DNA from: Actinophytocola gossypii
GTDB taxonomy: Bacteria; Actinomycetota; Actinomycetes; Mycobacteriales; Pseudonocardiaceae
Direction of reading: 5' to 3'
NCBI RefSeq assembly: GCF_025165815.1
Contig: NZ_JAFFZE010000009.1
Span: forward strand, 310,001-374,000
DNA length: 64,000 bases
The notes under the pieces were generated by a model that was given only the letters and a program-made list of their open reading frames with translations, ran no database searches and was not told where the DNA came from. The position numbers and the translations under genes were made by a program. Position 1 is the stretch's first letter. Each line of letters opens with the position of its first letter. Shown here in pieces: positions 30,332 through 58,807 of this stretch.

Positions 30332-32680
30332 CTACCGTCCGGACGCCGAACTCGACGGCTCGGTGCGCGGGCCGAACGCGCGCAGGAACCGGTCGCGGAA
30401 GCTGTCCATGCGCCACACCGGCGCGTTCTCGGACGGGTTCATCCCGGGCTGCCAGTGCCAGTGGTCGATCCGGTCCAACACCGCCGGATCCTTCGCGATG
30501 ACCGTGATCGGCACGTCCCAGGTGGCATTGTCGCCGGTCACGATCGGCGCCGGCTGGTGGTCGCCGACCACGACCAGCACCAGGTCGTCGTCGCCGTGGG
30601 TCTCGACGTAGGAGACGAGCGTGCTCAGCGAGTACTCGATCGCGTCGCCGTAGGCCCGGGTGACCTTCACCGGGTCGGGCCAGATCTCGCTGCCCTTGGT
30701 GCCGGCGGCCGGCTGCGGGTCGAACACCGAGCCGTCGCCCACCTCGTCCCAGTCGACCAGCGTCGGCAGCGGCGCGAACGGCGAGTGCGACGACACCAGG
30801 TCGATCTCCGCCATCACCGGCTCCGGGCGGTCCCGCTCGGCCCGCTCGAAGTGGGCCAGCGTGTACTGGTCCGGCATCTTCGCGTACGCGTACCGCGGGC
30901 CCTCGTAGCCGACGTTGTGCGCGTCGTAGATCTGTTCGAAGCCGAAGTACCCGCCTTCCGGCCACGCCCGGGAGATCGCCGGTGCCACCCCGACCGTGCG
31001 CCATCCCGCCCGCCGGAACGCGTTGCTCAGCGTCAGCCGGTCGCTCGCGGTCAGCGCGTCGTACCGGTGCTGGTTGTTGATCCACAGCCCGGACTGCAAG
31101 GTGGCGTGCGCGAACCAGCTCCCGCCCCCGGACGTCGACGACTCAAGGAACGCGCTGCGCGAGTCGAAGCCGGCCGCGCGCAGCCGGTCGGTGCCCGCGT
31201 CGAGCACCGCGTCCACGTCGGCAGCGACGGCGGAGTCCTCGACCGCCACCCGCCCGTAGCTCTCCACGAACGTCACCAGCACGTCCTTGCCGCGCAACGC
31301 GGTCAGCAGCTCGCTGCCCGGGGTGTGCCGGAAGTCGTCGTCGGCTGCCTCCTTCGTGAACCGCGCCGGGTCGAGCAGCCCCGCGCGGATCTGCCGCACG
31401 TCCTGGTACGCCGCCGAGGCCGCGCTGCGGGCCGCGACCGGCACGTGCGGCACGATCCGCACCTCGAACATCGCCAGGATCGCCCACACCAGCCCGAACA
31501 CCAGCACCGTGCGGGTGGCTCTGGTCCGGTGGCCGACCACGATCCGGGACAGCCGCAGCACCGACCAGACCATCGACCCGACCAGGCCGAGCGCCAGCGC
31601 GACCGCCCCGACCACCGCCATGGTCGCGACGAACCCGCCGGCCGACCCGCGCAGGAAATCCAGGCCAGGCCCGAGGAACGTCCAGTCGAAGACCGGGTCG
31701 AACGGGCGGGCCAGGGTCTCGTTGAAGCCGAGGTCGAAGAGCTTCACGATGGTCAGCAGGCCGAGCCCGGCGCCGGCCGCCACGGCCGCCACCGCCCTCG
31801 GCCGAGGCGGCAGTACGAGCACGAGCCCGGCGACGAGGATCGCCTCCACCGGCAGCCGGGCGAACGCGACCGGCGTGTAGCGGCTCAGGTCGTTCGGCGC
31901 GAGCAGGGCGAACAGCACGAGCGCACAGGCGAGCCCGGTGGCCACCGCGGCCAGCGCGCGCCGCAGCGGGGTCGCCGGCTTCGGCTCGACCACCCGCTGT
32001 TCGCGCAGCCACAACAGGTCCCGCCCGAACGACCAGACCAGCGCCACCAGCGCCGCCCCGACCACGACCACCGAGCCGAGCGTGCCGAGCACCCCGGACG
32101 CGGCCACGACCAGCACGATCCCCTGCGCGGCGGCGACGGTCTTGCGGAACAGGCTCACCGGCAACGGCGCCCGCAGCCAGCCACGCGTCCACCCGGCCGC
32201 CACGAATCCGTACCGCATCAACCCGATCACCAGCACCCACGGCCCGAGATCACCGGCGACGTGCACGCTGAGAATCAGGATGAGGAACGCGTCGACCTCC
32301 ATGTCGAACCGCGCGCCGAACGCGGACACCGTGCCCGTGCGCCGCGCCAGCCGGCCGTCGACCGCGTCCAGCGACAGGGCCACCGCCGCGAGCGCGACCA
32401 GCAGCGGCACCGGCGCCGAGCCGTCCGCGACCAGCGCGGTCACGCCGACGACCAGCACCGCCCGGCCGAGCGTGACCAGGTCGGCCGGGCCGAACGCGGA
32501 CACCCCGGAGCGTCGCGCGGCCACGGCGAGCGCGACCAGCCCGGCCGCGCCGACCGCCAGCCCGGCCGTCCAGCCCGCCGTGCCGAGCCCGGCGACCGCG
32601 GCCAGCACACCGAGCAGCACCACCTGCCCACCGGCCGCGGCGCTGAGTGTGCGAACTGGGGAACCCGACGGTCCGGCCAC
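30332..32680 (-). CDS. Fusion of CDP-alcohol phosphatidyltransferase and LtaS-like alkaline-phosphatase-fold domain
   Basis: The 782-residue membrane protein combines two enzyme types. Residues 60-225 form a CDP-alcohol phosphatidyltransferase with the complete motif D105-A-V-D108-G-x2-A112-R113-x8-G122-x3-D126-x3-D130. After further helices (about 240-410), residues 465-770 form a sulfatase/lipoteichoic-acid-synthase-like domain: metal Glu in FVESYG (473), nucleophile region STSGGGSW-AHATLQSG (515-531), VSSHSPF (His632) and VVGDHQP (Asp707-His708). One half would make a phospholipid or alditol-phosphate lipid inside; the other would transfer or hydrolyse phospho-groups outside. The product is unknown. 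It is divergent from a methyltransferase gene. Confidence 0.88.
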   Translation of the reverse strand: MAGPSGSPVRTLSAAAGGQVVLLGVLAAVAGLGTAGWTAGLAVGAAGLVALAVAARRSGVSAFGPADLVTLGRAVLVVGVTALVADGSAPVPLLVALAAVALSLDAVDGRLARRTGTVSAFGARFDMEVDAFLILILSVHVAGDLGPWVLVIGLMRYGFVAAGWTRGWLRAPLPVSLFRKTVAAAQGIVLVVAASGVLGTLGSVVVVGAALVALVWSFGRDLLWLREQRVVEPKPATPLRRALAAVATGLACALVLFALLAPNDLSRYTPVAFARLPVEAILVAGLVLVLPPRPRAVAAVAAGAGLGLLTIVKLFDLGFNETLARPFDPVFDWTFLGPGLDFLRGSAGGFVATMAVVGAVALALGLVGSMVWSVLRLSRIVVGHRTRATRTVLVFGLVWAILAMFEVRIVPHVPVAARSAASAAYQDVRQIRAGLLDPARFTKEAADDDFRHTPGSELLTALRGKDVLVTFVESYGRVAVEDSAVAADVDAVLDAGTDRLRAAGFDSRSAFLESSTSGGGSWFAHATLQSGLWINNQHRYDALTASDRLTLSNAFRRAGWRTVGVAPAISRAWPEGGYFGFEQIYDAHNVGYEGPRYAYAKMPDQYTLAHFERAERDRPEPVMAEIDLVSSHSPFAPLPTLVDWDEVGDGSVFDPQPAAGTKGSEIWPDPVKVTRAYGDAIEYSLSTLVSYVETHGDDDLVLVVVGDHQPAPIVTGDNATWDVPITVIAKDPAVLDRIDHWHWQPGMNPSENAPVWRMDSFRDRFLRAFGPRTEPSSSASGR

Positions 32681-32806: not shown

Positions 32807-33586
32807 GTGCACACCCAGTTCGCACCCGAATGGCTCGCGCTGCGCGAGGACGCCGACGCGGCCGCGCGCGCCGAGGACCTGCTGGAGCCGCTGCGCTCCC
32901 ACCTGATCCCGCCGCTTGTCGTCCGCGACCTCGGCTGCGGCACCGGTGCCATGGGCCGTTGGCTGGCCCCCCGCCTGCCCGGCGAGCAGCGCTGGCTGCT
33001 GACCGACCGCGACCCCGCCCTGCTCGCCCAGGCCGCCGGCAGCCTGCCGGTCCCGGCCGTGGCGATCCTGCGCGACCTCACCGACCTGACCGCGGCCGAC
33101 CTGGCCGGCGCGTCCCTGGTCACCGCGTCCGCACTGCTCGACCTGCTCACCGCGGACGAGGTCGACGCGCTGGCCGCCGCGTGTGTCGCGGCCGGCTGCC
33201 CGGCGCTGCTGACGCTGACCGTGGTCGGCCGGGTCGAGCTGGAGCCGGCCGACCCGCTCGACGCGAACCTCACGGCGGCGTTCAACGCACACCAGCGCCG
33301 CACGGTCACCGGTCGCCGGCTGCTCGGCCCGGACGCGGCGGACGTCGCCGCCGCCGCGTTCGACCGCCGGGGCGCCGTCGTGCACCGCCGCTCCAGCCCG
33401 TGGCGGCTCGGCCCGGACCGGCGCGAGCTGACCGCCCGCTGGCTGCGCGGCTGGGTCGACGCCGCCGAGGAGCAGGAGCCCGGCCTGGCCGTGGACGCCT
33501 ACCTGCACCGCCGCCTCGCCGCCTGCGAGGCGGGCGAACTACGCGCCACGATCCACCACGAGGACCTGCTCGCCCTGCCGGGGTGA
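32807..33586 (+). CDS. Class I SAM-dependent methyltransferase
   Basis: The 259-residue product begins at a GTG with GGGAGG upstream and contains the SAM-binding motif I VVRDLGCGTGAMGRWLAP (about residues 38-55), an acidic residue after the second strand (LLTDRDPALLAQA) and a later SALLDLLTADEVDAL block. The target is unknown. It is divergent from the CDP-alcohol phosphotransferase/LtaS-like fusion, sharing a 126-bp promoter region. I recall actinobacterial loci in which similar methyltransferase and phosphotransferase genes sit with glycosyltransferase and pterin-synthase-like genes; those partners are absent here. Confidence 0.85.
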   Translation: MHTQFAPEWLALREDADAAARAEDLLEPLRSHLIPPLVVRDLGCGTGAMGRWLAPRLPGEQRWLLTDRDPALLAQAAGSLPVPAVAILRDLTDLTAADLAGASLVTASALLDLLTADEVDALAAACVAAGCPALLTLTVVGRVELEPADPLDANLTAAFNAHQRRTVTGRRLLGPDAADVAAAAFDRRGAVVHRRSSPWRLGPDRRELTARWLRGWVDAAEEQEPGLAVDAYLHRRLAACEAGELRATIHHEDLLALPG

Positions 33587-54283: not shown

Positions 54284-57200
54284 TCAGCAGAGCTCGTCCA
54301 GGTCGTCGACGGCCGCGTCGGCGAGGTTCGCGCACAGCCGCTCCACCGCGTCCTCCGGCTCGACGAACCACACGGCGACGTCGGTGTCGGTGCCGGCGGA
54401 GGCCAGCCGGCGCCCGTCGGGGGAGAACTCGATGTGGTTGGGCGACGCGGCGTGCCCGTCCAGGACCGCCAGCAGCTCCCGGTTCCGCAGGTCCCACAGC
54501 CGGATGAACGAGTCCTCCAGCGTCACGGTCGCCAGCGTTCGCCCGTCGGGGGAGATCGCGAGCTGCCGCACGACCGCCGGGTGCCGGCCGAACTCGGCGC
54601 GCAGCGCACCGGTGGTGGCGTCACGGATCTGGAGCATCCCGCCGGTGCCGGCGGTGACCAGCGTGTGGCCGTTCGGCGTGTAGACCGCGGTGGTCAGCGA
54701 CTCGTCGCCGAGCTGGTGGCGCTGGTCGCCGGTGAACGACGGTACCGGCCAGGTCACCATGTTCGCGGCCGACTCGCCCCCGGAGCCGGTGATCACCAGC
54801 AGCGTGTCGCCGCCGGGGGAGAAGGCCAGCTCGAACGGGTTCTCCTCACCCAGCTCCAGCTCCGCGCGCTCGGACCCCGTTCCCAGGTCCCAGGCGGTGA
54901 TCCGGTGGTCGGCGTCCGTGTCGCCGGAGATGATCGGCTCGCGGTGCGCGGCGACGAGCCAGCGGCCGTCCGGGGACACCGCCAGCAGACCGTGGAACTG
55001 CCGGCCGTCGAGGGCGATGGTCCGCTCCTCGCCGTCCGGCGGGGTCACGGTGATGACCGCGTTGCGCGAGGCGGTGACCCTGGTCCCGTCCTCGGCGTAG
55101 CGGACGGCGAACGCGCCGCCCTCGACCCGGTCCCCGTCGTCACCGGTCTCCTCGCCGGTGGTCACGTCCCACGTGTACAGCGCGCCCTCGGCATCGCCCG
55201 CGGTGAGCCGCCCGCCGTCCGGGTGGAAGTCGAGCCCGGTGACCGCGCCGAGCGGCTCGGTGTGCCAGCCGGACCGGCTGGACCAGCGCAGCACGGTGCC
55301 GTCGCTGGTCGCCGCGATCCTGGTGCGGCCGTCCCCGGACTCGGCGACCGCGAGGACCGTGCGACCCACCGAGGTGCCGGCGCGCGGGCCGTGCGGGAGC
55401 CCGCCGAGGTAGCTGCCGCTGAGCGGGTCCCACACACTCAGCGTGCTGGTGTCGCTGTTGGTGTAGAACAGCGACCCGTCGGCGGAGAACGCGATCGACG
55501 TCGGGCCCTGCGCGGCGTCGGTGGAGTGCCGGGTGATGTCCGGCATCTCCCGCACCGGCGCGCCGGTCCGCGGGTTCCAGAACCGGATCAGGTTGTCCGA
55601 CACGCTCGCCGTGGCCATCAGGTCGTGGGTCATCGCCACCTGCACCGGCGTCGAGTCGTGCACGGAGTTGTCCCGGTGGGCGTAGCTGCTGCTGATCCGC
55701 CTGCCGGTCGACGGCTCCCACAGCTCGACGCTGCCGTCGCTGTGCCCGACCGCGAGCCGGTCGCCGTCGACCCCGTAGGCGAGGCCGGTGGTGTCCTGGG
55801 CGCGGTCGGCGACCCACCGGATCAGGTTGCCGGTCCTCGGGTCCCACTCGCCGACCCACGCGGTGCTGTCCGCCCGCACCGACGGCGCCGCGATCGCGTT
55901 CCCGTCGGGGCGCCACGCGATCGGCCCGAGCGCGATATTCGCCTCGGAGAGCTGCCGCACCAGCGTGCCGTCCGGTACTTCCCACACCCGGATCCCGGTG
56001 CCGTCGCCCTCCGAGTCGATCGAGGACACAGCGAGCAGCGAGCCGTCCGGGGAGAACCGCACGGCGGTGACGATCCCGGCGCCGGTGACGTCCACGTCGA
56101 GCGGCTCGGCCGCCTCGACGTCCCACACCACCACCTCGCCGAGGCCGCCGACCGCGACCAGCGAGCCGTCCGGGCTGACGTCGGCGGCGGACAGATCGTT
56201 CACGCCGGTGGCGAAACCGGCAGGGTAGCTCAGCATCGGCGCGGACAGCAGCGCGCCGCGTGCCTCCGGGGTTCGGCTCGTTCGCCAGCCTTGGAGCGCC
56301 TTGCGGATGGCGTCGACCGGGTCGACGTCGCCCTCCTCCAGTGACTCCGCCGCGAGCTGCCTGGACAGCGAGACCGCGGCCGCCCGCTCGGCCTCCTCGC
56401 GGGCCAGGACCGCGACGAACCCGGCGACCAGGGCGATCACCAGCAGGCTGGCCAGTCCGACGGCCAGGCCGCGCAGCCGCCGCGTGGTGCGCCGCCGGTC
56501 GCGTTCGCTGGCCCGCAGGAACGCCCACTCGTCGGGGGTGAGGTCGGCCCGCCCGGTCGCCCAGTCGAGCGCCGCGGCCAGCCGCGCGCCCCGGTACAGG
56601 TCGGCCCGGTCCTCCCCGCGGGCCCGCCAGCCCGCCGCTGCCTCGTCGAGCTGCTGGCGGATGAGCAGGCCCTGCCGGTCCTCGGCCACCCACTCGCGCA
56701 GCCGGGGCCATGCGGTGAGCAGCGAGTCGTGCGACAGCGCGACGCTGGAGCCGTCGACGGTGACCAGGCGCGTGGCCACCAGCCGCTCCAGCAACGGCGC
56801 GGGGATCTCGGCGCGGTGCGCCCGGCGGCGTGCGATGCCGCCGCCGTCGAGCAGGGTGACCATGCGCAGCAGCGCGGCCCGCAGCGCGCGCTGTTCGGGC
56901 TCGGCGAGGCGGGTGAACACACCGTCGGCGGTGAGCGCCACGGCCCGGTCGACGCCGCCGGTGGCCTGGTAGCCGGTGAGGGTCAGTACGTTGCCGGAGC
57001 GGTTGTGCCAGGTCTCGCGCAGCGCGTGCGCGAGGCGGGGCAGCGCACCGGGGTCGCGGCCGGAGCCGCCGCTCAGCACGTCGGCGATCAGCCGGTCGGC
57101 CAGACCGGGCTCAAGGACGAGCCCCGCCGCCTCGGCCGGTTTGGTGACGACCTGGGTGAGCTCGGCCGCGGTGAGCGGGCCGAGCACGTACGGCGCGGCG

Positions 57201-58759
57201 AGCGACGGCTTGAGCGGGTCGAGCGTGATGCAGTGCTCGACGAAGTCCGCGCGCACCGCGAGCACGACCCTGGCCGGCCACGCGCTGGCGAGGGCGATGG
57301 CGAACGCCTCCCGCTCGCGCGGATCGGTGGTCTGGGTGAACAGCTCCTCCAGCTGGTCCACCGCGATCACCAGCGGGGCGTCCGCCCGGGCGGCGGCGGC
57401 GCGGCACAGCTCGCCGAACGTCGCCGGCTGGTGGTACAGCTGCCGGGCGAGGTGGTGCGCGTCGGCGCGGGTGAGTGCGGCCAGGCGCGCGGCGAGCGTG
57501 CCGATCGGCCGCTCGCCGGGGGTCAGCGCGAGCCGAGGGGCGGACGGGCTGTGCCTGGCGTGCGCGGCGAGCAGGCCGGCGTGCAGCAGCGAGGACTTGC
57601 CGGCGCCGGACGCGCCGACCACGAGCAGCGGCCCGGAGTCGGCGCGCTGGCGGGCGAGCCGGGCCAGCAGCTCGCGCACGGCCTGCTCACGGCCGAAGAA
57701 CCACTCGCTGTCGCCGGTGCCGAAGCTCTGCAGGCCGGGGTAGGGGCAGCGCTCGCGCACGGGCCTGGTGACCGCGTCGTCGGCGTCGTCCGCTCCCGCC
57801 ACCGGGACGGTCGGCTCCGGCCCGCCGACGGTGGCCAGCAGTCGGACGAAGTAGGTCTGGCCGGGGTCGCCGCCGGTCGGCAGGTCCACCACGGCAGCGG
57901 CCCGGGCGTCGGCGGTGACCGCGGCGGCGGCCGCCATCAGCTCGCCCGCGCTGGGGTAGCGGCGCCTCGGGTCCTTGTCCATGCCGGTGCGCACGACCAG
58001 GTCCATCGCCGGCGGGATCCGGCGGTCGAACAGTGACGGCGCGGGCGGTGGGTCGTTGAGCTGCGCGGTGAGCTTGCTCGGGGTGTCCGGGGCGGGAAAG
58101 GGCACCCGGCCGGTCAGGCACTGGAACAGCACGCAGGCCAACGAGTAGACGTCGGACGCGGCGTCGACCTCGCCGCGCACCAGGCGTTCCGGCGCCATGT
58201 AGTCGAGGGTGCCGATGTACTCGCCGGTCTGGGTCAGCTTGGTGACATCCGGGGCGACCGACCGGGCGATGCCGAAGTCCGCGAGGTAGGCGGTGCCGTC
58301 CGCGTCGACGAGGATGTTCGCCGGTTTCACGTCCCGGTGCAGCACCCCGTTGGCGTGCGCGGCGTCCAGCGCGGCGGCGACCTGGGTGAGGATCTCGTTG
58401 GTGCGTAAGGGATCCAACGGCCCGTCGGCGAGCAGCTGTTTGAGGTCCTGGCCGTCGACGAGCCGCATGTCCAGGTACAGCCGGTCGTCGATCTGGCCGT
58501 GGGCGTGGATCGGCACGACGTGCGGCGCGTTCAGCCCGGCGACGATCCGCGCCTCGCGGCGGAAGCGGGCGCGGTACTCCTCGTCGGCGGTGGCCGGCAG
58601 CCGCTTGAGCGCGACGTACCGTTCGTGCACGGTGTCGTAGGCGCGGTGCACCTCGCCCATGCCGCCTCGGCCGAGCAACTCCTCGACGCGGTACGGACCG
58701 AACATCTCCGCTTCGTCCGGCGTTTCCGACGCCGAGACCTCCGACACCGCGTCACTCAT
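54284..58759 (-). CDS. Ser/Thr protein kinase fused to a STAND ATPase and WD40 propeller
   Basis: The 1491-residue protein has a complete Pkn-type kinase (Gly loop GRGGMGEV about 30-37, Lys52, HRDVKPAN 141-148, DFGIA 161-165, APE), then a novel-STAND-type ATPase (FFGREQAVRELL, Walker A GASGAGKSS about 382-390, LVIAVDQLEELF as Walker B). A transmembrane helix follows near residue 770 (GLASLLVIALVAGFVAVLA), then a long series of WD40 repeats (FSPDGSLLAVSS, ISPDGRTLATVT, FSPDGRRLASAG) to the C-terminus. With kinase and ATPase inside, the propeller would lie outside and may be the sensor. ATG at 58759 follows GGGGAGTGG. Its operon partners are listed around it. Confidence 0.92.
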   Translation of the reverse strand: MSDAVSEVSASETPDEAEMFGPYRVEELLGRGGMGEVHRAYDTVHERYVALKRLPATADEEYRARFRREARIVAGLNAPHVVPIHAHGQIDDRLYLDMRLVDGQDLKQLLADGPLDPLRTNEILTQVAAALDAAHANGVLHRDVKPANILVDADGTAYLADFGIARSVAPDVTKLTQTGEYIGTLDYMAPERLVRGEVDAASDVYSLACVLFQCLTGRVPFPAPDTPSKLTAQLNDPPPAPSLFDRRIPPAMDLVVRTGMDKDPRRRYPSAGELMAAAAAVTADARAAAVVDLPTGGDPGQTYFVRLLATVGGPEPTVPVAGADDADDAVTRPVRERCPYPGLQSFGTGDSEWFFGREQAVRELLARLARQRADSGPLLVVGASGAGKSSLLHAGLLAAHARHSPSAPRLALTPGERPIGTLAARLAALTRADAHHLARQLYHQPATFGELCRAAAARADAPLVIAVDQLEELFTQTTDPREREAFAIALASAWPARVVLAVRADFVEHCITLDPLKPSLAAPYVLGPLTAAELTQVVTKPAEAAGLVLEPGLADRLIADVLSGGSGRDPGALPRLAHALRETWHNRSGNVLTLTGYQATGGVDRAVALTADGVFTRLAEPEQRALRAALLRMVTLLDGGGIARRRAHRAEIPAPLLERLVATRLVTVDGSSVALSHDSLLTAWPRLREWVAEDRQGLLIRQQLDEAAAGWRARGEDRADLYRGARLAAALDWATGRADLTPDEWAFLRASERDRRRTTRRLRGLAVGLASLLVIALVAGFVAVLAREEAERAAAVSLSRQLAAESLEEGDVDPVDAIRKALQGWRTSRTPEARGALLSAPMLSYPAGFATGVNDLSAADVSPDGSLVAVGGLGEVVVWDVEAAEPLDVDVTGAGIVTAVRFSPDGSLLAVSSIDSEGDGTGIRVWEVPDGTLVRQLSEANIALGPIAWRPDGNAIAAPSVRADSTAWVGEWDPRTGNLIRWVADRAQDTTGLAYGVDGDRLAVGHSDGSVELWEPSTGRRISSSYAHRDNSVHDSTPVQVAMTHDLMATASVSDNLIRFWNPRTGAPVREMPDITRHSTDAAQGPTSIAFSADGSLFYTNSDTSTLSVWDPLSGSYLGGLPHGPRAGTSVGRTVLAVAESGDGRTRIAATSDGTVLRWSSRSGWHTEPLGAVTGLDFHPDGGRLTAGDAEGALYTWDVTTGEETGDDGDRVEGGAFAVRYAEDGTRVTASRNAVITVTPPDGEERTIALDGRQFHGLLAVSPDGRWLVAAHREPIISGDTDADHRITAWDLGTGSERAELELGEENPFELAFSPGGDTLLVITGSGGESAANMVTWPVPSFTGDQRHQLGDESLTTAVYTPNGHTLVTAGTGGMLQIRDATTGALRAEFGRHPAVVRQLAISPDGRTLATVTLEDSFIRLWDLRNRELLAVLDGHAASPNHIEFSPDGRRLASAGTDTDVAVWFVEPEDAVERLCANLADAAVDDLDELC

Positions 58760-58807
58760 GAACCACTCCCCAGTCACGTCCGCGATCAGCCTACGGCCAG
58801 GAGAAGA

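Follow-up and report, generated by a model that had tools for sequence, protein, structure and literature searches.

A single gene in Actinophytocola gossypii encodes a CDP-alcohol phosphotransferase fused to an LtaS-type transferase, and we propose that its product is a two-sided membrane enzyme. In this proposal a phosphatidyl-X would be made inside, the lipid flipped and phospho-X transferred outside, with X coming from the partner genes. We give this reading a probability of about 45%, slightly short of even odds. Both active sites were conserved, the top characterised folds were those of proteins that move phospho-head groups, and the predicted topology fits. The gene lies in the 64,000-nucleotide stretch of DNA analysed here (the window), and the coordinates of all features are collected in Table 1.

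Table 1. Features of the window and of contig C14 of the same genome; unprefixed positions are those of the window.
Feature	Position	Strand	Details
Fused gene, CDP-alcohol phosphotransferase + LtaS-type transferase	30332..32680	(-)	782 aa, GTG start
Inner half, residues 1-229	31994..32680	(-)	Eight predicted membrane helices, CDP-OH_P_transf fold
D-x2-D-G-x2-A-R-x8-G-x3-D-x3-D motif, residues 105-130	32291..32368	(-)	Invariant, 30/30 rows
LtaS-type half, residues 238-770	30371..31969	(-)	About five membrane helices and an extracytoplasmic domain from about residue 450
Glu473, predicted metal ligand	31262..31264	(-)	79/79; directly after model strand 466-472
Ser521, predicted nucleophile	31118..31120	(-)	79/79; opens model helix 521-530
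His632, predicted catalytic His	30785..30787	(-)	79/79; four residues past a model strand
Asp707-His708, predicted metal ligands	30557..30562	(-)	79/79; directly after model strand 700-706
Divergent methyltransferase (Methyltransf_25)	32807..33586	(+)	30.2 bits against a cut-off of 27; homologues at 31/80 best loci
Dehydrogenase	C14 9368-10342	+	Own genome, locus L090
PTPS-like	C14 10364-10762	+	Own genome, locus L090
GT4	C14 10759-11811	+	Own genome, locus L090
Flippase-like	C14 11808-12761	+	LPG_synthase_TM match, E 4.4e-30
GTP cyclohydrolase II	C14 12758-13486	+	Own genome, locus L090
Creatininase-like	C14 13369-14082	convergent	Own genome, locus L090

The fused gene and its inner half

By codon position the bases of the frame follow a coding-like pattern, and with relatives at the 80 best loci it is a real gene, present as a single copy in the 7.38 Mb genome. 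The first-pass annotation had read a complete CDP-alcohol motif in this one 782-residue frame, and this was borne out by the invariance of its eight residues (D105, D108, G109, A112, R113, G122, D126, D130) in all 30 inner-half rows, which consisted of the window protein and 29 single-domain relatives. A larger mixed alignment had other letters in some of the motif columns (e.g., D108 in 57 of 61 rows), which probably reflects outer-half-only rows that are misaligned where the halves join. The CDP-OH_P_transf profile (PF01066), proposed earlier as a check, matched residues 66-208 (E 1.3e-10; 42.3 bits against a Pfam cut-off of 22), and among 90 proteins scanned it matched exactly the 54 inner-half carriers.

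Four other CDP-alcohol phosphotransferase genes in the genome match PgsA, cardiolipin synthase ClsA, PssA and PI-phosphate synthase, leaving the inner half free for another acceptor. The PgsA (124.7 on the pgsA model; cut-off 109.1) and PI-phosphate synthase genes scored above their curated cut-offs, with the ClsA match just below its own. The synthesis of PG and PI(-phosphate) is thus already covered. Among NCBIfam models, the fused protein fell short of the pgsA equivalog cut-off (16 bits against 109.1) and reached the cut-off of no CDP-alcohol phosphotransferase-family model. A role as PI-phosphate synthase was ruled out on the criterion that the fourth motif Asp is immediately followed by an Arg, which in M. 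tuberculosis PgsA1 is R94 (PMC6506517); the corresponding position 131 was Ala, Ser or Gly in all 57 rows and Arg in none.

Modelled alone (pLDDT 94.6), the inner half displayed two extra N-terminal helices compared to other CDP-alcohol phosphotransferases. Its closest solved fold was PGP synthase (7drj/7drk), with a TM-score of up to 0.70 by target length and a probability of 1.00, yet an E of only 0.016-0.021; PS synthase, AF2299 and PI-phosphate synthases followed, and no match reached E 0.001. Being nearest to PGP synthase in fold, the inner half may still make a glycerol-phosphate head group. It could then be a second PGP synthase that provides a dedicated phosphoglycerol supply, with the outer half taking glycerol phosphate off PG and passing it to an acceptor that is possibly a glycan or a partner-gene product. 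R156, K180 and Q186 align with the same residues in the genome's own PgsA and would suit a glycerol-phosphate-like acceptor, LtaS and GacH are themselves phosphoglycerol transferases, and in Dinoroseobacter shibae the pair adjoins mdoG/mdoH on plasmid pDSHI05. We nevertheless consider a phosphoglycerol supply doubtful. The separate PgsA, with which no second PG maker is needed, speaks a little against it. The weak score on the pgsA model also counts against it, as does a search of the best 80 loci in which neither mdoG nor mdoH turned up, and the linked GTP-derived genes would be left without a role unless they make the acceptor.

The outer half

The complete LtaS-type metal and nucleophile set reported by the first-pass annotation also held, with Glu473, Ser521, His632, Asp707 and His708 present in all 79 outer-half rows (the window and 78 of the best 80 loci; L033 and L066 are missing as their outer half was uncalled). 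Arg325, Asp332, Asp604 and Gln605 were likewise invariant (79/79), and the first two of these sit in a loop placed outside by the charge pattern. The nucleophile loop proposed at residues 515-531 could be narrowed to Ser521 within it, which judging from the alignment and the model is most likely the nucleophile; Thr516 was less constant (72/79). The helices, together with loop charges taken over 30 fused sequences, are consistent with 8 + 5 membrane spans, and the distribution of loop charges suggests that the CDP-alcohol motif lies inside and the LtaS-like domain outside.

The Pfam Sulfatase profile, also proposed as a check, found no match in the second half of the window protein as a single sequence, and was borne out for the family (42 of 66 outer-half carriers among the 90 scanned proteins matched PF00884, best E 4.1e-11) and by the fold. 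Structure modelling was confident for the whole protein (AlphaFold, mean pLDDT 94.2, pTM 0.79), and the best PDB matches were LtaP and LtaS (4uop, E 3.2e-8, probability 1.00). The top 20 matches also included MCR-1, GacH and a protein from Vibrio that is uncharacterised (3lxq). LtaP/LtaS, GacH and MCR-1 are known movers of a phospho-head group. In a comparison aimed at the glycerol-phosphate pocket residues of LtaS, the profile match of the outer half to LtaP was weak (E 0.027) and did not set Ser521 against the expected nucleophile Thr.

Arylsulfatases carry the nucleophile motif C/S-x-P-x-R. Residues 521-525 read S-W-L/F-A-H, with S-x-P-x-R absent there, and this together with the fold ranking rules out an ordinary sulfatase or arylsulfatase. 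Annotated plasmid records name the outer half a sulfatase, a sulfatase-like hydrolase/transferase or an LTA synthase family protein.

The outer half might also act as a phosphodiesterase that releases phospho-X outside, in which case a secreted metabolite would be exported. Same-fold hydrolases (sulfamidase, sulfatases, phosphonate monoester hydrolase) do appear lower in the fold list, and clustering, Pfam scans and tblastn recognised no acceptor gene among the recurring neighbours. Release is nonetheless improbable given that transferases lead the characterised folds and that the outer half has an LtaS-like membrane part.

Fused, split and outer-half-only loci

Relatives were sampled by a species-genome scan, and the counts below refer to the best 80 loci of at least 577 relatives. 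These came mainly from Actinomycetota and Alphaproteobacteria, with further loci from Salinisphaera and from MAGs labelled Marinimicrobia. The two halves formed one open frame at 31 loci, all labelled Actinomycetota, and were encoded by separate genes of the retrieved stretch at 41, the remaining 8 showing only the outer half there; L052, L057 and L066, whose halves differ in frame but are no more than 100 bases apart, were counted as split and could be frame-error fusions. An automated tally had given 34 fused, 38 split and 8 outer half only, from which L049, L053 and L055 were reassigned to split, each having one frame per half. The recurrence at 31 loci indicates that the fusion is no artefact of the window sequence, and the separate genes on the same stretch at other loci that the two halves belong together.

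On a tree that used earlier labels, with some now-split loci still marked 'outer half only', at least six changes between fused and not fused were required, so joining or splitting recurs. An accidental joining of neighbouring operon genes, without mechanistic gain, would agree with these changes and with the catalytic residues kept in split forms, and is very improbable because it leaves unexplained why Actinomycetota, Alphaproteobacteria and other groups retain both halves along with their partners. The nearest relatives among the listed loci were three from Actinophytocola with the same divergent fusion-methyltransferase pair. A record titled Rhodococcus rhodnii (L020; genome 12.4 Mb) fell within Kibdelosporangium in the tree and may be mislabelled. 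Outer-half genes were also seen away from the cluster in some Streptomyces, including a plasmid copy (L100 11779-13548), and one genome (G153) carried two copies of the outer half close together on opposite strands.

Recurring partner genes

The partner set was defined by neighbour clustering, Pfam and NCBIfam scans, and tblastn with ten seeds. The counts rest on tblastn because the crude gene caller overlooked three genes on C14, those for the dehydrogenase, the PTPS-like protein and the cyclohydrolase. Across the best 80 loci, tblastn detected a BchC-like dehydrogenase at 55, a GT4 glycosyltransferase at 54, a PTPS-like gene at 53 and a flippase-like gene at 52, where the GT4 and flippase-like seeds may also pick up less close kin. 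These were followed by a RibD-type reductase (44), the methyltransferase (31), GTP cyclohydrolase II (29), cytochrome b561 (11, none labelled Actinomycetota) and a creatininase-like gene, whose presence at only 7 loci counts against the two-sided reading. Dehydrogenase, PTPS-like and GT4 genes were all present at 52 loci, and the PTPS-like gene was found at 20 of the 31 fused loci and 33 of the 49 others. At three alphaproteobacterial loci (L077, L080, L083), families F11, F15, F38 and F9 adjoin the pair and look like parts of a sugar-type ABC transporter.

This listing of fusions and their neighbourhoods, proposed in the first-pass annotation, bears on two of its suggestions. The divergent methyltransferase was supported as an associate by its recurrence as a partner. 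Of the coupling of head-group synthesis inside to its use outside, the parts that stood are that the halves belong together and that the topology places one inside and one outside; the teichoic-acid-like polymer was not supported, as the steadiest partners were GT4, flippase-like, dehydrogenase and GTP-derived heterocycle enzymes, and no teichoic acid genes were recognised among the recurring neighbours of the best 80 loci.

The PTPS-like protein of locus L009 matched PDB 3D7J (S. coelicolor SCO6650; E 1.6e-62). All 53 PTPS-like proteins carry an HGA motif with Ala instead of Cys four residues before the His, changes by which the catalytic Cys and one His ligand of zinc would be lost. A Glu-Ser near the C terminus was kept in 53 of 53, and this Glu presumably anchors pterins. 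SCO6650 itself we take to be inactive as a PTPS, with the pterin-like pocket retained.

Partner genes in the same genome

The genome carries the rest of the partner set away from the window, mostly on C14, and the genes are not visible in the window because they are located on these other stretches. The PTPS-like, GT4, flippase-like and GTP cyclohydrolase II genes on C14 overlap in series by a few bases. The genome has 18 RibD_C matches, and the one on C53 is 60% identical to the Salinispora cluster member. The window also holds, at 54284-58777 (-), a protein of 1497 aa that combines Ser/Thr kinase, nSTAND1 and WD40 propeller domains.

The C14 cyclohydrolase has a Met where the other copy in the genome has Tyr. 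In work attributed to Spoonamore and others in 2006, such a change in SCO6655 is said to yield a formylated pyrimidine. Three Streptomyces isogenes are described as having changed activities (PMC3509567). The residue was Met at only 2 of the 29 cyclohydrolase loci among the best 80 (L009 and L037) and Tyr at 27. Both Met loci carry the creatininase-like gene, and the combination would suit a deformylase role for the latter. The creatininase-like gene also occurred with a Tyr cyclohydrolase at L049, L062, L081 and L086, and at L053 with no cyclohydrolase match; the best match of its product was MftE, with a weak score for the ArfB deformylase (30 bits against 180).

Co-inheritance and the minimal core

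In a set of 396 actinomycetote genomes, an outer half (E<1e-100) and a PTPS-like protein (E<1e-40) were each found in 18, and these were the same genomes, at thresholds picked after the lists were seen and with two candidates scored per genome. Fisher's p for the co-occurrence was 1.7e-31, a value that ignores relatedness when 13 of the 18 genomes belong to one genus. The next genome (G008) had a PTPS-like match of 3.8e-37 and a CDP-alcohol-type match of 2.2e-28, with no listed outer half.

The PTPS-like gene was missing from 27 of the best 80 loci, of which 26 were tested by genome (L069 was left out because it is on a different contig of the K. aridum assembly that also contains L023). The gene was found elsewhere in the genome in 18 of the 26 and was missing (E<=1e-8) in 8, namely five Kribbella, Litoreibacter, Tropicimonas and one MAG. 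These eight genomes also had no dehydrogenase (8/8; E<=1e-20) and mostly no GT4 (missing in 6/8; E<=1e-25), and seven of them have the flippase-like gene at the locus. The steady core thus consists of the inner half, the outer half and the flippase-like protein. The GTP-derived part, although common, can be dispensed with.

A core-type gene set was also displayed by pDSHI05 of Dinoroseobacter shibae (L099 8876-15985), which combines CDP-alcohol, LtaS-like, flippase-like, ABC transporter, GT4 and cytochrome b genes, the GT4 belonging to the same family as that of the cluster. The mdoH and glucan biosynthesis protein genes that adjoin this pair (mdoG/mdoH, periplasmic glucan synthesis) hint at a periplasmic glucan as acceptor in the Dinoroseobacter lineage. 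As an acceptor in general, periplasmic glucan was rejected on the 0/80 count for mdoG/mdoH given above.

Proposed mechanism

For the two-sided enzyme we propose four steps. First, the inner half would use CDP-diacylglycerol to attach a phosphatidyl group to a hydroxyl of X, a molecule of the cytoplasm, and so give phosphatidyl-X, where the family of the enzyme is established and we infer the substrate. Second, the partner with an LPG_synthase_TM match, a domain of the flippase part of MprF, may turn the lipid over. Third, Ser521 of the outer half would attack the lipid phosphate, releasing diacylglycerol and passing phospho-X to an extracytoplasmic acceptor; the fold and catalytic residues are shown by the model and the alignment, and the reaction is predicted. 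Fourth, going by gene linkage, X may be built from GTP by GTP cyclohydrolase II, the RibD-type reductase and/or the creatininase-like enzyme, the PTPS-like protein and the dehydrogenase, then glycosylated by GT4 and finally methylated. The fourth step is weakened by the eight genomes in which the pair exists without the GTP-derived part.

The linked genes favour a GTP-derived glycoside as the candidate X. In its most specific form the proposal would have a glycosylated, methylated GTP-derived pyrimidine or pterin as lipid head group, which is flipped and whose phospho-heterocycle the LtaS-like enzyme puts on a surface molecule; we regard this form as unlikely. If true, bacteria of several phyla would make such a lipid and use it to bring a redox cofactor to the surface, with an outcome comparable to that of ApbE, which transfers FMN. 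The presence of cytochrome b561 at its 11 loci fits a redox role in those non-Actinomycetota lineages.

One protein that spans lipid making inside and head-group use outside would offer a handle on an orphan pathway, and fusion and linkage together predict that the SCO6650 pathway ends in a phospholipid and extracytoplasmic transfer. In a search of open-licence literature we came across no account of either the fusion or the cluster. Neither of the findings that the first-pass annotation had named as speaking against it was encountered, as the catalytic residues were conserved and no characterised fusion appeared in that literature. A GTP-derived head group, if real, would be a kind of lipid without description in the same literature.

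Comparison with known systems

The cluster PTPS-like protein of L009 is like SCO6650, whose structure has been solved under the PDB name uncharacterized and for which the open-licence literature searched held no link to lipid transfer. The flippase-like partner in the same genome resembles MprF, the lysyl-PG synthase/flippase, through its LPG_synthase_TM match. Unlike MprF, it gave no match to the aminoacyl transferase domain, and the flippase-like protein of L009 scored 18 bits against a cut-off of 600 on the MprF equivalog.

The inner half shares with PgsA and other CDP-alcohol phosphotransferases the complete motif, and PgsA is its closest fold. It differs from them as the fifth member in its own genome, with two further N-terminal helices, fused, and below the cut-off of every NCBIfam model of the family. 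LtaS and LtaP, together with GacH and MCR-1, gave the best folds for the whole model and share the arrangement in which the membrane part precedes an outer catalytic domain, and the metal and His positions of the fused protein follow the expected strands and helix. The nucleophile of LtaS is Thr. The fused protein, in contrast, has an invariant Ser as predicted nucleophile and only 12-15% identity in the listed matches, and, with neighbours that include no recognised teichoic acid genes, its outer half comes with a CDP-alcohol phosphotransferase, either by fusion or as a pair.
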